DNA from: Myxacorys californica WJT36-NPBG1
GTDB lineage: Bacteria > Cyanobacteriota > Cyanobacteriia > Leptolyngbyales > Leptolyngbyaceae
Direction: 5' to 3'
Assembly (NCBI GenBank): GCA_019359315.1
Contig: JAHHHO010000001.1
Span: forward strand, 62,001 to 126,000
Length of the DNA: 64,000 nt
The notes below the pieces were generated by a model. That model ran no database searches. It was not told the origin of the DNA and saw only the letters and a list, made by a program, of their open reading frames with translations. The translations under genes and the position numbers were made by a program. Of this stretch, positions 20,139 through 44,129 are shown in pieces (the stretch's first letter is position 1; each line of letters starts with the position of its first letter).

Positions 20139-20495
20139 TCGGGGTTGCGATCGCTGAATTTAGGACTTACACAAAGGTTGCTTGTTGTTAAGTTGGCAAC
20201 ATTAGATCTAGTATTCGAAGCTGCCTCACTCTAGCCCTGTCCTACGGGAGAGGGAACAAGAGTCTATCTCTGTTAGTAGCAGCGCATTTGAATAACAGCA
20301 GAGGAGTGAAGCGTTGCTGAAAATGTTTATTATCAACTTTATAACCAACAAGGAACTGACTGTAGCAGCGCGATCGCTTCGTTTAGCATCTGGTATTTGT
20401 TAAGCTAAATCCTCCGTTATTGGGAGCAGGATCGGTTGCAAAACTGAGTGTTACCTCTTGCTTCTTATGCAGTAGCCTATGGAGATTGAACGCTT
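20139..20495. other. 357-bp intergenic region with a solo element end
   Basis: No gene seen. AGGACTTACACA (20162-20173) is one base away from the AGGACTTACGCA end of the inverted-repeat element at 42986-43229, but no inverted partner was found within the gap. It may be a solo end or a decayed copy. The promoter of the downstream Old Yellow Enzyme gene should lie here. Confidence 0.4.
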
Positions 20496-22691: not shown

Positions 22692-23184
22692 AGGTGAACG
22701 TCAGGGAAAACCGCATTCATTTGACTTCTGAAGCGGCTGGTTGAAGCTCAGAACGCGGAGATTGAACCAATTTGCTTGACATTCCAGGTTCTGAGCTTCA
22801 TTTTTGAAGTAAAAAGCTCGACGTTCCGAGTTCTGGAGGCGAAGTTCCGGGTTCTGAGCTTGGAGTTCCGAGTTCGGAAGGCGAAGTTTCTCATTCTGAA
22901 GGCGAAGTTCCAGGTTTGGAAGGCGGAGCGGCGAGTTCCGAGGGCAAAGTTCCGAGTTCGGAAGGTGAAGTTTCGTGTTTGGAAGGCGGAGCGGCGAGTG
23001 CTGAGGGCAAAGGGCGAATTCAATTTGGCAGCGATCGCCACATTCTCGAACGTTTGCAGAGTTATGTATTCCTTAGCAACACCCATTCATGCCTGCCGAC
23101 TGAAATGAAATTGCTGCTGACAGTTTTTCTGAAACTCAACTTGAGCAGGGCTTTTCAGTCCGCTTGCCCTTTTTTGCCCTAATG
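22692..23184. other. 493-bp intergenic region containing a 21-bp repeat array
   Basis: Open frames on both strands are products of the 21-bp periodicity and are not regarded as genes. Outside the array (22823-23011) there is a HIP1 site near 23030 and nothing else that was recognised. The region separates convergent genes, so it needs no promoter. Confidence 0.6.
22823..23011. repeat. Nine-unit 21-bp tandem repeat array
   Basis: Nine units of exactly 21 bp follow each other with no insertion or deletion. A typical unit is GTTCCGAGTTCGGAAGGCG plus AA. The best-preserved units contain the 14-bp near-palindrome TTCCGAGTTCGGAA (at 22866-22879 and 22950-22963). Units 5-7 and 8-9 show a 63-bp higher-order pattern, with GCGGCGAG-type units in positions 6 and 9. 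Because 21 is a multiple of three, heptapeptide-repeat frames stay open on both strands, but they have no start signal or homology. The array lies between convergent genes. Confidence 0.85.
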
Positions 23185-32541: not shown

Positions 32542-32651
32542 GGCATTGCTTTGTCGTGAAGTATTCCTACCGGGGCTACTTGGTAGATGTAAAACAGGCA
32601 TTGCTTTGTCGTGAAGTATTCCTACCGGGGCTACTTGGTAGATGTAAAACA
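32542..32651. repeat. Perfect 55-bp tandem duplication
   Basis: Bases 32542-32596 are repeated without a mismatch at 32597-32651. Each copy contains CTACC-N10-GGTAG, a small inverted repeat. As 55 is not a multiple of three, the duplication shifts the frame of the transposase-like sequence that runs through it. Identity of the copies implies a recent event. Confidence 0.95.
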
Positions 32652-40897: not shown

Positions 40898-42985
40898 ATG
40901 ACCTATTCAGATCCCACCTCAACGCTCACACCTCCCATTGCTCCAAGGCATCCTCACGTTCACAGCCTGCATGGCGATGAACGGGTAGACGATTATTTCT
41001 GGTTGCGCGATCGCGACAACCCGGAAGTGATTGCCTATCTCGAAGCTGAAAATGCTTACACAGAGGCAATGATGCAGCCCGCCCAAGCGCTGCAAGAGAC
41101 GTTGTACCACGAGATGCTGTCGCGCATTCAGGAAGATGACTTATCGGTTCCTTACCGTCGAGGCGAATTTTATTACTACACGCGCACCGAAACTGGGAAA
41201 GCCTACCCAATTCACTGCCGCAAACCAGGTTCGCTCGATGCGCCTGAAGAAGTGCTGCTTGACCAAAATCAACTTGCTAAGGGAGCCGAGTATTTTAGTT
41301 TAGGGGTGTTTGCAGTCAGCCCAAATCATCAAATTTTGGCGTATGCGATCGATACCACAGGTGCAGAACGCTACACCTTGTTTTTTCTCGATTTAGCAAC
41401 TCGTCAACTCTATTCAGAAAGCATTCCCGACACCTATGTTTCGTTTGCTTGGGGCAACGATAATCAAACGGTGTTCTATACGCAGGTAGACGCTGCTCAG
41501 CGTCCGTACAAGCTGTTTCGGCATTCGCTGGGTCAGCCTGTTAGTGATGATCCGCTAGTGTTTCATGAACCCGATGAGGCGTATTTTCTAGGCATCGACA
41601 AGACCCGGAGTGAGGCCTATTTGCTGCTGAATTTGGGCAGTAAGATCACCTCTGAAGTGCATTATTTAGATGCCAACAATCCAACGGGAGCGTTTCAGGT
41701 GATTTGTCCCCGGACGACGGGCATCGAGTATGAGGTTGAGCATCACACCGATGCTTTTTATATCGTTACCAATGAAGAGGCGCTCAACTTCAAACTGATG
41801 AAAGTGCCGGTTGCGAATCCCAGTCGTGAGAACTGGCAAACGGTGATTGAGCATCAAGAAGATGTGTTTTTGATGGGCGTGAGCGCGTTTATCGATCATT
41901 TGGTGATTTACGAGCGCGAAGCCGGATTACCCAAAGTGCGTGTTCGCAAGCTTTCCGCCGACGAAGAACACACGGTTTCTTTTCCAGAAGCAACCTATGA
42001 GGTGTCAGAATCGGTGAATCCAGAGTTCAACACTCACACGCTGCGGTTTGGCTACACGTCGCTGGTAACGCCCTTTTCAATCTTCGACTACGATCTCGAT
42101 GCGCGATCGCGGGAGTTAAAGAAAGAAACGCCTGTGCTAGGCGGATACGATCGCGCTCACTATCACAGCGAACGACTCCAAGCCACTGCACCTGATGGCA
42201 CCGCCGTTCCGCTGTCCATTGTCTACAAAGTTGGCGTTGAGCGGACTGGACAAAATCCCGTGTTGCTAACGGGTTACGGTTCGTATGGCTTCAGCTACCC
42301 AGATTCGTTTTCGGCGACGCGCCTATCACTGCTCGATCGCGGCGTGGTGTTAGCGATCGCGCATGTGAGAGGCGGGTCAGAACTCGGACGTAAGTGGTAC
42401 GAAGACGGCAAGTTTTTACACAAGCAGAACACGTTTAGCGACTTTATTGCCTGTGCTGAGACGCTGATTCAGCAGGGTTGGACGGATTCGGAACATTTAG
42501 CAATTTCGGGCGGAAGTGCAGGTGGATTGTTGGTTGGGGCTGTGATCAATCAACGCCCGGAGTTATTTCGAGCCGCGATCGCGCAAGTGCCGTTTGTGGA
42601 TGTGGTGACAACCATTTTAGATACTTCGCTGCCGCTCTCAGCGACCGAGTGGGAAGAATGGGGCAACCCAAACGACAAACAGTTTTACGACTACATGAAG
42701 GCGTACTCTCCCTACGATAATGTCACGGCGCAAGCCTATCCTGCTCTGCTCGTCACGGCAGGGTTGAACGATCCCCGTGTGTCGTACTGGGAACCTGCAA
42801 AATGGACAGCAAAACTGCGATTTGTGCGAGCAACTCCAACTCAATCAGAGTCAGATCATCCCGTACTGCTACTCAAAACAAATATGGGAGCCGGACATGG
42901 AGGCGCTTCTGGGCGGTACGATCGCCTTAAAGAAGTTGCTTTTGAGTATGCCTTTCTGTTACATCAGTGGGACATGACAAATTAG
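40898..42985 (+). CDS. ptrB: Oligopeptidase B (prolyl oligopeptidase family S9A)
   Basis: A 695-residue serine peptidase, read from the ATG at 40898 (a GTG lies three codons earlier). The N-terminal RHPHVHSLHGDERVDDYFWLRDRDNPEV is the classical opening. An N-terminal propeller follows, then the hydrolase domain with nucleophile Ser540 in SGGSAGG, Asp in GLNDPRVSYWEP and His in GAGHGGASGRYD. The usual TYERVRPDIPSR-like acidic pocket was not checked. It should cleave short peptides after Arg/Lys in the cytoplasm or periplasm; no signal peptide. Its TAG stop codon forms the left flank of the inverted-repeat element that follows. Confidence 0.93.
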   Translation: MTYSDPTSTLTPPIAPRHPHVHSLHGDERVDDYFWLRDRDNPEVIAYLEAENAYTEAMMQPAQALQETLYHEMLSRIQEDDLSVPYRRGEFYYYTRTETGKAYPIHCRKPGSLDAPEEVLLDQNQLAKGAEYFSLGVFAVSPNHQILAYAIDTTGAERYTLFFLDLATRQLYSESIPDTYVSFAWGNDNQTVFYTQVDAAQRPYKLFRHSLGQPVSDDPLVFHEPDEAYFLGIDKTRSEAYLLLNLGSKITSEVHYLDANNPTGAFQVICPRTTGIEYEVEHHTDAFYIVTNEEALNFKLMKVPVANPSRENWQTVIEHQEDVFLMGVSAFIDHLVIYEREAGLPKVRVRKLSADEEHTVSFPEATYEVSESVNPEFNTHTLRFGYTSLVTPFSIFDYDLDARSRELKKETPVLGGYDRAHYHSERLQATAPDGTAVPLSIVYKVGVERTGQNPVLLTGYGSYGFSYPDSFSATRLSLLDRGVVLAIAHVRGGSELGRKWYEDGKFLHKQNTFSDFIACAETLIQQGWTDSEHLAISGGSAGGLLVGAVINQRPELFRAAIAQVPFVDVVTTILDTSLPLSATEWEEWGNPNDKQFYDYMKAYSPYDNVTAQAYPALLVTAGLNDPRVSYWEPAKWTAKLRFVRATPTQSESDHPVLLLKTNMGAGHGGASGRYDRLKEVAFEYAFLLHQWDMTN

Positions 42986-43229
42986 ACAGGACTTACGCAA
43001 GGCAAGTCGTTGCAGATTTTGCATTCATGGGTCATTACCAATAACGTTTCTTTTGTGACGAACCGGGTGCCTTTCGTGACGAACCGGGTGCCTTTCATGA
43101 CGAATCGGATTTCTTTCGTGATGAACTGGGTGCCTTTCGTGACCAACAACGTTTCTGTCGTAACGAATCGGGTTCGTGTTTTTAAGTTCAGGTTCAGCGT
43201 CGTGACGATACCCAGTGCGTAAGCCCTGT
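42986..43229. mobile_element. MITE-like element carrying a 21-bp repeat array
   Basis: A 244-bp segment bounded by 14-bp terminal inverted repeats matching at 13 of 14 positions: ACAGGACTTACGCA at 42986-42999 and TGCGTAAGCCCTGT at 43216-43229. It is flanked on each side by TAG (42983-42985, the stop codon of the peptidase gene, and 43230-43232), consistent with a 3-bp target duplication. Inside lie six clear 21-bp repeat units. It encodes no transposase, so it would need one in trans. A near-copy of one end lies at 20162-20173. Confidence 0.65.
43046..43171. repeat. Six-unit 21-bp tandem repeat array
   Basis: Six consecutive 21-bp units of the type GTGCCTTTCGTGACGAACCGG minus end variation (43046-43171), followed by a degenerate seventh. 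Most units contain the 11-bp palindrome TTCGT-G-ACGAA or a near version. The period is the same as in the array at 22823-23011, although the sequences differ. Heptapeptide frames are open on both strands only because 21 is divisible by three. Confidence 0.85.
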
Positions 43230-43256
43230 TAGACTTCTTACAAAAGTCTTCTGCTC

Positions 43257-44024
43257 TCAATCATCCATCGCTGCACCTTGGCGCATCCGGCTCAAGAAAG
43301 TGCGGAGGCGATCGCTCTGCGGATTTCGCAAGACTTCACGAGCGACGCCTGATTCAGCAACACGGCCTTGATCGAGAAACATGACTCGATGCGCCACTTC
43401 ACGAGCAAACTGAATTTCGTGAGTCACAACCACCATCGTCATCCCGTTTTCAGCCAGGTTTTGCATCACCTCTAGCACTTCGCCCACCAGTTCCGGATCG
43501 AGGGCGCTCGTGGGTTCGTCAAACAGCATCACCTTGGGTTCCATGCAGAGACTGCGAGCGATCGCGACGCGCTGTTTCTGTCCGCCCGAAAGCTGCTCTG
43601 GATACACCTCGGCTTTGTCTGCCAAGCCGACTTGGTTGAGGTAAAACCGCGCTCGTTCCTGGCTTTGCGATCGTGACTGACCCAATACTTGCTGAGGAGC
43701 CAACGTTAAATTGTCCAACACACTGAGATGAGGAAACAGATTAAACTGCTGAAACACCATGCCGACTTGCGATCGCAACTGACGCAATTGTTTAGAGCTA
43801 AGGTGGACGTGAGAAAGATTCAGATCGTTGATGATAATTTCACCGCGATCAATCGTCTCTAACCGATTGAGACAGCGCAGCAGCGTACTTTTACCACATC
43901 CAGAAGACCCAATGACCGCAAACACTTCACCGCGATCAACATAGCCACTAATCCCCCGCAGGACTTTCAGGGAACCAAAGTTTTTCTCAACTTGCTCAAA
44001 TACGATCGCGCGCGAGGGATTCAT
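43257..44024 (-). CDS. bgtA: Amino-acid ABC transporter ATP-binding protein
   Basis: A 255-residue ATPase of the polar-amino-acid class, from the ATG at 44024 (a GTG lies two codons earlier). Walker [11 protein letters not shown]-loop [12 protein letters not shown], signature [15 protein letters not shown], Walker [17 protein letters not shown] and [13 protein letters not shown] are intact. The gene diverges from a fused binding-protein/permease gene, the layout expected of the BgtAB system for basic amino acids and glutamine known from Synechocystis and Anabaena. The symbol is assigned by this pairing. Confidence 0.88.
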
Positions 44025-44129
44025 GATCACGTTAAGGATATAGAACTTCAGACATTGCGATCAGGGAGAATAGATCATTCTTAAGCAAATACTTTCTGCT
44101 TTACCTCCCCACTAGTAGAGATTTCACTC

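Follow-up and report, generated by a model that had tools for sequence, protein, structure and literature searches.

A probable MITE with a 21-bp minisatellite interior at a peptidase stop codon in Myxacorys californica

In the genome of the cyanobacterium Myxacorys californica WJT36-NPBG1 (G000), two convergent genes, for an S9 prolyl oligopeptidase and an ABC transporter ATPase, are separated by a 242-bp segment that we call element F (positions 42987-43228 of the 64,000-nt stretch analyzed here, the window). F has inverted ends, a flanking duplication and an internal array of 21-bp tandem repeats (Table 1), and it raises the questions of what kind of element it is, what could have placed it at a stop codon, and why its repeat unit is 21 bp long. 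We are largely confident that F is a MITE with a minisatellite interior, moved in trans by an IS701-family transposase.

Table 1. Features of element F and its surroundings (window positions), and further 21-bp arrays of the same genome outside MITEs (L numbers are locus handles)
Feature	Position	Strand	Basis
S9 prolyl oligopeptidase gene (host), 698 aa	40889..42985	+	ORF list + domain match
Left target-site duplication TTAGA	42982..42986	.	sequence reading; 5-bp rule from 40 elements
Left 13-bp terminal inverted repeat CAGGACTTACGCA	42987..42999	+	sequence + boundary analysis
Left subterminal stretch (TTGCAGATnTT..), homologous to relatives	43000..43046	+	nhmmer
Array, about six 21-bp units, consensus CTTTCGTGACGAACCGGGTGC	43047..43173	.	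TRF
Right subterminal stretch (..TTCAGGTTCAGCGTCGTGACGATACCCAG), homologous to relatives	43174..43215	+	nhmmer
Right 13-bp terminal inverted repeat TGCGTAAGCCCTG	43216..43228	-	sequence + boundary analysis
Right target-site duplication TTAGA	43229..43233	.	sequence reading; 5-bp rule
ABC transporter ATPase gene, neighbour	43257..44030	-	ORF list + domain match
Non-MITE 21-bp arrays (1)	L154:3887-3988, L154:7550-7854, L168:5311-5582, L176:3758-3912		TRF
Non-MITE 21-bp arrays (2)	L186:14845-14934, L187:11457-11671, L269:10293-10368, L274:6684-6846		TRF
Non-MITE 21-bp arrays (3)	L278:534-824, L280:7844-7974, L281:3793-3951, L287:15356-15585, window 22819-23012		TRF

The two ends carry the inverted sequences AGGACTTACGCA (42988-42999) and TGCGTAAGCCCT (43216-43227), and the right end matches the left at 12 of 13 bases. 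Read outward, the junctions are TTAGA-CAGGACTTACGCA on the left and TGCGTAAGCCCTG-TTAGA on the right. Tandem Repeats Finder (TRF) reported 4.7 copies at period 21 over 43050-43147, with 42- and 63-bp rows extending the array to about six units, which confirms the internal array seen in a preliminary description of this DNA. The same description took the left TAG for the stop codon of the oligopeptidase gene and supposed that the insertion left the protein unchanged. Both points hold: the TAG occupies 42983-42985, within the left TTAGA copy, and because it lies inside the duplicated target the peptidase reading frame is unaltered. We found no transposase in F; of its two open frames, 70 aa on the plus strand (43010-43222) and 92 aa on the minus strand (42982-43260), neither matches Pfam.

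Several boundaries fit F alone, and the rule for its limits was therefore taken from other copies. We collected complete paired ends, allowing each end a single mismatch, which gave 40 distinct elements from seven genomes (G000, G001, G005, G008, G009, G020 and G024); most of these stretches were picked for their paired ends, with duplications disregarded. At a 13-bp boundary, 22 of the 40 elements had an exact 5-bp duplication, against 2 of 1560 mis-paired flanks (pairs that are not independent of one another), and duplications of any other length numbered at most 2. A 14-bp boundary yielded 3-bp agreement in 26/40 elements, and in 22 of these it is the interior of a 5-bp duplication. The ends had been described as 14 bp long with 13/14 matching bases, flanked by TAG on both sides. 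The inverted ends and the flanking TAGs are indeed present, but the repeat is 13 bp and the duplication is the 5-bp TTAGA; the fourteenth base, and TAG as a 3-bp duplication, result from a boundary put one base too far out. Among the eight two-ended MITEs with arrays, F included, the exact 5-bp duplication is found in F and C17 only; the others retain 4/5 bases (C1 and G001-C16), 3/5 (C15 and C126), 2/5 (G001-C44) or 1/5 (C105). These scores were obtained by eye for C17, C105, G001-C16 and G001-C44, and from the 40-element analysis for F, C1, C15 and C126.

Could such an arrangement of ends and TAGs have arisen by chance around an ordinary intergenic minisatellite? Chance alone places some end-like sequences with one or two mismatches in a window of 64 kb, and this genome has plenty of 21-bp arrays that lack such ends. 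At up to two mismatches the window held 8 matches to the end, two of them F's own, where 4.26 ± 1.84 were expected and 5 of 100 shuffles reached 8. A near-copy at 20162, previously taken for a solo end, is one of these chance-level matches, for which the 2 kb downstream contain no partner end with 3 mismatches allowed, and we rejected it as an element end. At up to one mismatch, 46 sites in the genome compare with 32 for the control, so that mismatched solo ends are often noise. The exact end AGGACTTACGCA, however, is present in 19 copies (12 forward and 7 reverse) where 0.7 are expected from the base count and the reversed control gives 0. Together with the exact 5-bp duplication and homologous siblings of the same architecture, this count makes a chance origin of the arrangement hardly credible.

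The end sequence is not peculiar to Myxacorys. At least one exact copy was found in 64 of 116 genomes sampled across the cyanobacterial class, many of them with only one or two, like the control, and the richest with 241 against 3 for the control. In a sample of the taxonomic family, 35 of 42 genomes had at least one exact end, with a maximum of 211. Cyanobacteria are thus a group in which F-type ends can be very abundant.

A genome-wide search for paired ends, proposed in the preliminary description, uncovered further two-ended elements in M. californica, and the suggestion of a non-autonomous element family carrying minisatellites is borne out by relatives that share the ends and core of F. 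We identified seven two-ended relatives of F. Five are in its own genome (C1, 433 bp; C15, 150 bp; C126, 508 bp; C17, 395 bp; C105, 251 bp) and two in Myxacorys almedinensis (G001; C16, 215 bp, and C44, 366 bp, the latter by eye with an extra insertion); C60 of the own genome holds a related copy with one end only. The seven share with F the ends, the subterminal DNA and units of 21 bp. Two other elements of the own genome, on C59 (166 bp) and C116 (233 bp), are MITE-like, with ends as in F and a different core. At period 21, TRF counted 2.8 units in C105, 13.2 in C17, 14.8 in C1 and 17.8 in C126, and by eye C15 has a single unit, so the family ranges from 1 to about 18 units. Such differences between relatives may have arisen by slippage or unequal recombination.

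F itself is a diverged member, since a DNA search with F in its own genome matched F alone. In 57 other genomes the same search gave one match, of 32 bp at 88%, in a genome from another family of the class (G052, L053). By eye, this match consists of two like units 21 bp apart; the 3 kb of L053 held no paired ends when 2 mismatches were allowed, and we did not accept it as a family member. Homology was examined with nhmmer profiles built from the relatives, with F left out and the ends removed. With the left profile (eight relatives), F was the best match in the window (E 0.0025 at 43008-43051) and also the second (0.013), the next place elsewhere scoring 0.25. A first right profile from seven relatives, including the rearranged G001-C44, did not find F; without C44 and with a longer stretch (six relatives), F was found at E 3.3e-5 (43151-43203), the next match being at 2.5. 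Of the 15 pairs among six MITE units, 10 or 9 match at 13/21 or better in two separate comparisons, and the F unit matches those of C105 and G001 at this level. A DNA search with C15, the shortest sibling, gave matches in 2 of the 42 genomes of the taxonomic family, the own genome and G001. The left-interior pattern of C15, which F itself does not match, was found in a public genome collection on two contigs only, both from Myxacorys almedinensis A; records of the own genome are possibly absent from that collection.

We also searched for empty sites. Close peptidase orthologues were found at 21 loci, none of which matched the downstream side of F; G001 has no close peptidase orthologue. Both flanks of the C1 locus are retained in G001 and the element is missing, with about 200 bp around the junction too diverged for base-level reading. 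At the C126 and C105 loci, either the alignment ended short of the insertion point or the flanks matched separate contigs. A set of elements well suited to insertion studies was noticed in G005, a three-contig genome, where contig C1 holds ten 100-bp MITEs (L127-L136) with ends as in F, nine of them with exact 5-bp duplications.

Which enzyme could have moved F? The preliminary description asked for an autonomous transposon with the same ends. Related genomes contain intact candidates, all of the IS701 family, while none was seen intact in the own genome. Full-length insertion sequences (ISs) with F-type ends are present in G020 (L115 and L116, 1133 bp) and G008 (L143, 1132 bp). L116 and L143 encode an intact 340-aa transposase (NCBIfam NF049921, 384 bits against a cut-off of 250), and that of L115 is broken in two. 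L116, an intact copy, is flanked by an exact 5-bp duplication, AAGCA; no exact duplication was seen at L115 and L143, the other two of the three full-length 1.13-kb copies. G001 has a 375-aa IS701 frame (348 bits) flanked by F-type ends 2525 bp apart, beside a 329-aa frame without an NCBIfam match. The best match in the own genome, on C121, is broken by three TGA and one TAG codons and sits in a 1056-bp element with exact ends and no duplication. The 12-bp core of the ends is identical between F and these ISs; unlike them, F carries no DDE transposase, and by eye they have no DNA in common beyond the ends, subterminal stretches included. IS701 elements are as a rule listed with 4-bp duplications, one base shorter than those of L116 and of F-type elements.

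From these comparisons an IS701-family insertion sequence is the likely mover of F. Its DDE transposase would recognize the 13-bp ends (T/C)AGGACTTACGCA, and the TTAGA duplication would be due to a 5-bp staggered cut by the enzyme, by which F would have landed over the peptidase stop codon with the protein unchanged. In the own genome, four contigs (C2, C73, C84 and C97; L033, L041, L042 and L044) stop about 120 bp inside nearly identical F-type ends, where a recent multi-copy insertion sequence was probably lost (collapsed) in the assembly.

The position of F between convergent genes also fits a bidirectional terminator or RNA hairpin, and in the predicted RNA fold the ends do pair (z -1.94; 8 of 200 shuffles did as well). 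This is only a modest gain over shuffles, however, and inverted ends would pair by themselves; a simple consensus scan of 42900-43300 revealed no terminator-like or promoter-like site, and there was no Rfam match. We regard this function as improbable.

MITEs with minisatellites are already known. BrickBuilt of Porphyromonas gingivalis has short inverted ends resembling full-length ISs and a minisatellite of 23-nt units between leader and tail, with 19 copies in one strain and a distribution covering P. gingivalis and P. gulae (PMC4596501). F is not a BrickBuilt element: its unit is 21 bp, a period that recurs outside the MITE, against 23 nt, and its ends read CAGGACTTACGCA where BrickBuilt has GAGACCTTTGCA and similar sequences (PMC4596501). 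The ends of BrickBuilt are IS5-family-like, whereas those of F match IS701-family elements, and its putative duplications vary by copy (CT, GAAA and AAAAA are printed), in contrast to the 5 bp of F-type elements (PMC4596501). MITE464/PgRS, from the same species, combines internal 41-nt tandem repeats with IS-like ends, and differs from F in both its ends and its unit length (PMC4596501). Among cyanobacteria, Anabaena sp. 90 has 147 complete or partial MITE copies of 77-541 bp, 132 of them intergenic, whose ends showed no evident likeness to the ISs of that genome according to its authors (PMC3542288). No minisatellite is mentioned for these cyanobacterial MITEs in the portion of the report at hand (PMC3542288). 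Among the matches listed in the open-licence literature, there was no description of the F end sequence, of IS701-linked MITEs in cyanobacteria, or of cyanobacterial 21-bp arrays or helical-turn minisatellites like these. F is a clear case of a minisatellite travelling in a MITE whose ends and duplication length are identified, as is its probable mover; what goes beyond the precedent of BrickBuilt and PgRS is the recurrence of 21 bp across the genome.

We surveyed multi-copy arrays (three or more copies) with TRF. In 1.22 Mb of the own genome, 19 of 44 arrays have period 21, and none has period 20, 22 or 23. A first sample of 823,259 bp gave 13/30, the next commonest period being 15 with 4 arrays, and a separately fetched 400 kb gave 6/14. 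The contigs of the first sample were those known from the end and sibling searches, so it leans towards MITE arrays: C1, C17, C105, C116, C121 and C126 hold F-type elements. MITEs account for four of its 13 period-21 arrays (those of C1, C17, C126 and F; C105 falls just under three copies), and without these four, period 21 is still the commonest, in 9 of 26 arrays. The arrays outside MITEs lie mostly between genes. In 400 kb of G001, period 21 was found in 3 of 14 arrays, as many as period 14. It was absent from 800 kb sampled across eight further genomes of the taxonomic family (0/80 arrays, or 0/14 without periods under 10), where 10.8 would be expected at the same density; most of these 80 arrays are period-7 arrays of G005. 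For periods of at least 10, the difference from the eight genomes is significant for the own genome (19/40 vs 0/14; Fisher, p 0.0009) and for both Myxacorys genomes together (22/51 vs 0/14; p 0.0014).

Short heptanucleotide tandem repeats (STRR) are abundant in cyanobacteria. Like the arrays described here they are tandem, but with a unit of seven nucleotides against a period of 21, and no inner 7-bp repeat was noticed by eye here. Unlike Myxacorys, the G005 sample (L213-L220) is dominated by 7-bp units, which occur in 47 of its 62 multi-copy arrays. G001 also has intergenic 21-bp arrays of other sequence at L209:18341-18504 and L211:4800-5013.

The arrays of period 21 are not one sequence family. 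We compared machine-made units from 23 arrays and the G001 MITE unit (276 pairs), and two groups emerged: the MITE units, and a group of four arrays (window 22819, L154:7666-7854, L280:7868-7956 and L287:15404-15585) that match one another at 13-17/21. Other pairs are below 13/21, save a few at 13-14: F and C17 with L274, C1 with L278 and L281, and L269 with a G001 array. These stray pairs have p 0.005-0.04, and chance alone would give some in 276 comparisons. No F-type ends were found near L274 within 3 mismatches (L274:6001-7500), and we rejected it as a MITE relative. The earlier proposal that F is perhaps linked to the array at 22823 is not supported by sequence, the units being below 13/21 in any register or strand, and that array groups instead with L154:7666-7854, L280 and L287; the two have the common 21-bp period. 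By eye, L176:3758-3912 (G000) and L209:14283-14419 (G001) resemble one array in two species, and yet their 21-bp units do not pair at 13/21 or better. The period-21 arrays of the own genome thus fall into about a dozen sequence groups: the MITE family, the four-array family and about ten others.

One explanation for a fixed unit would be coding, with the array specifying a repetitive small protein of 7-residue repeats and the reading frame keeping 21 bp. Both strands of F are open over most of their length, and two arrays elsewhere lie in long frames, one in the heptad region of a 626-codon frame and one in a phosphopantetheinyl transferase. Of the 15 non-MITE arrays of the own genome, five others (L154 twice, L274, L280 and L287) overlap stop-to-stop frames of at least 120-150 codons, and eight overlap none. 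We scored open frames in 19 arrays (two from G001 and 17 from the own genome, of which five lie in MITEs), leaving out both long-frame arrays as well as L280 and L209:14283, and compared them with column-shuffled arrays, in which period and divergence are kept. The arrays had 50 of 114 frames open against 46.5 ± 4.2 in the shuffles (p 0.25), and in C126 and two further arrays every frame was closed. Coding therefore fails to account for the period outside genes. With neither frame of F matching Pfam, we consider a coding role for its array highly improbable. The array in the phosphopantetheinyl transferase gene (L185:8814-9016) has about ten 21-bp units in frame, between the N-terminal and ACPS domains.

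Alternatively, the array could be the functional part of F, a protein-binding or supercoiling-sensitive ladder with sites two helical turns (21 bp) apart that the MITE spreads; by extension, the same constraint would fix the unit length of the other 21-bp arrays in the genome. The survey counts agree with such a constraint, in the second 400 kb taken alone as well as in the 1.22 Mb as a whole, in G001, and in the absence of the period from 0.8 Mb of the eight other genomes; so does the division of the units into about a dozen sequence groups. Against a ladder, the arrays showed no shared motif. The preliminary description had noted palindromes in the 21-bp units, a feature that does not survive comparison with shuffles (p about 0.5 for the unit of F), and we discarded the palindrome as a binding site. 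Neither did any of the 19 arrays show a 10-11-bp half-repeat above shuffles (lowest p 0.067), so a 10.5-bp half-repeat inside the unit was rejected too. Among the MITE relatives the unit drifts to 13-14/21 or below, which argues that no fixed binding site is kept. On balance, a functional ladder is unlikely, and we retain the MITE with a minisatellite interior as the reading of F.

A single unit length across about a dozen sequence groups is not predicted from slippage alone. We tentatively raise the idea, itself rather doubtful, that in Myxacorys genomes tandem repeats are made or kept at a fixed 21 bp (two turns of B-DNA) whatever their sequence, a common process setting the unit. Such a process would act in intergenic DNA, in the MITE family and, in frame, in genes; it might be, for example, a step of replication or recombination whose length is gauged by the helix or a DNA-bound protein, with the MITE as one substrate and as the carrier that spreads the array. 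The shared 21 bp may reflect common descent with sequence drift, helix- or protein-set amplification, or sampling effects. What sets the unit length of a minisatellite becomes testable within one organism.

Other repeats were noticed alongside these arrays. Positions 32542-32651 of the window are a perfect 55-bp tandem duplication (2.0 copies), which is probably a recent event because the copies are 100% identical. A dispersed repeat of about 35 bp (L159:13995-14029 and L179:10569-10603) is present in G001 in numerous copies that are about 88-100% identical.
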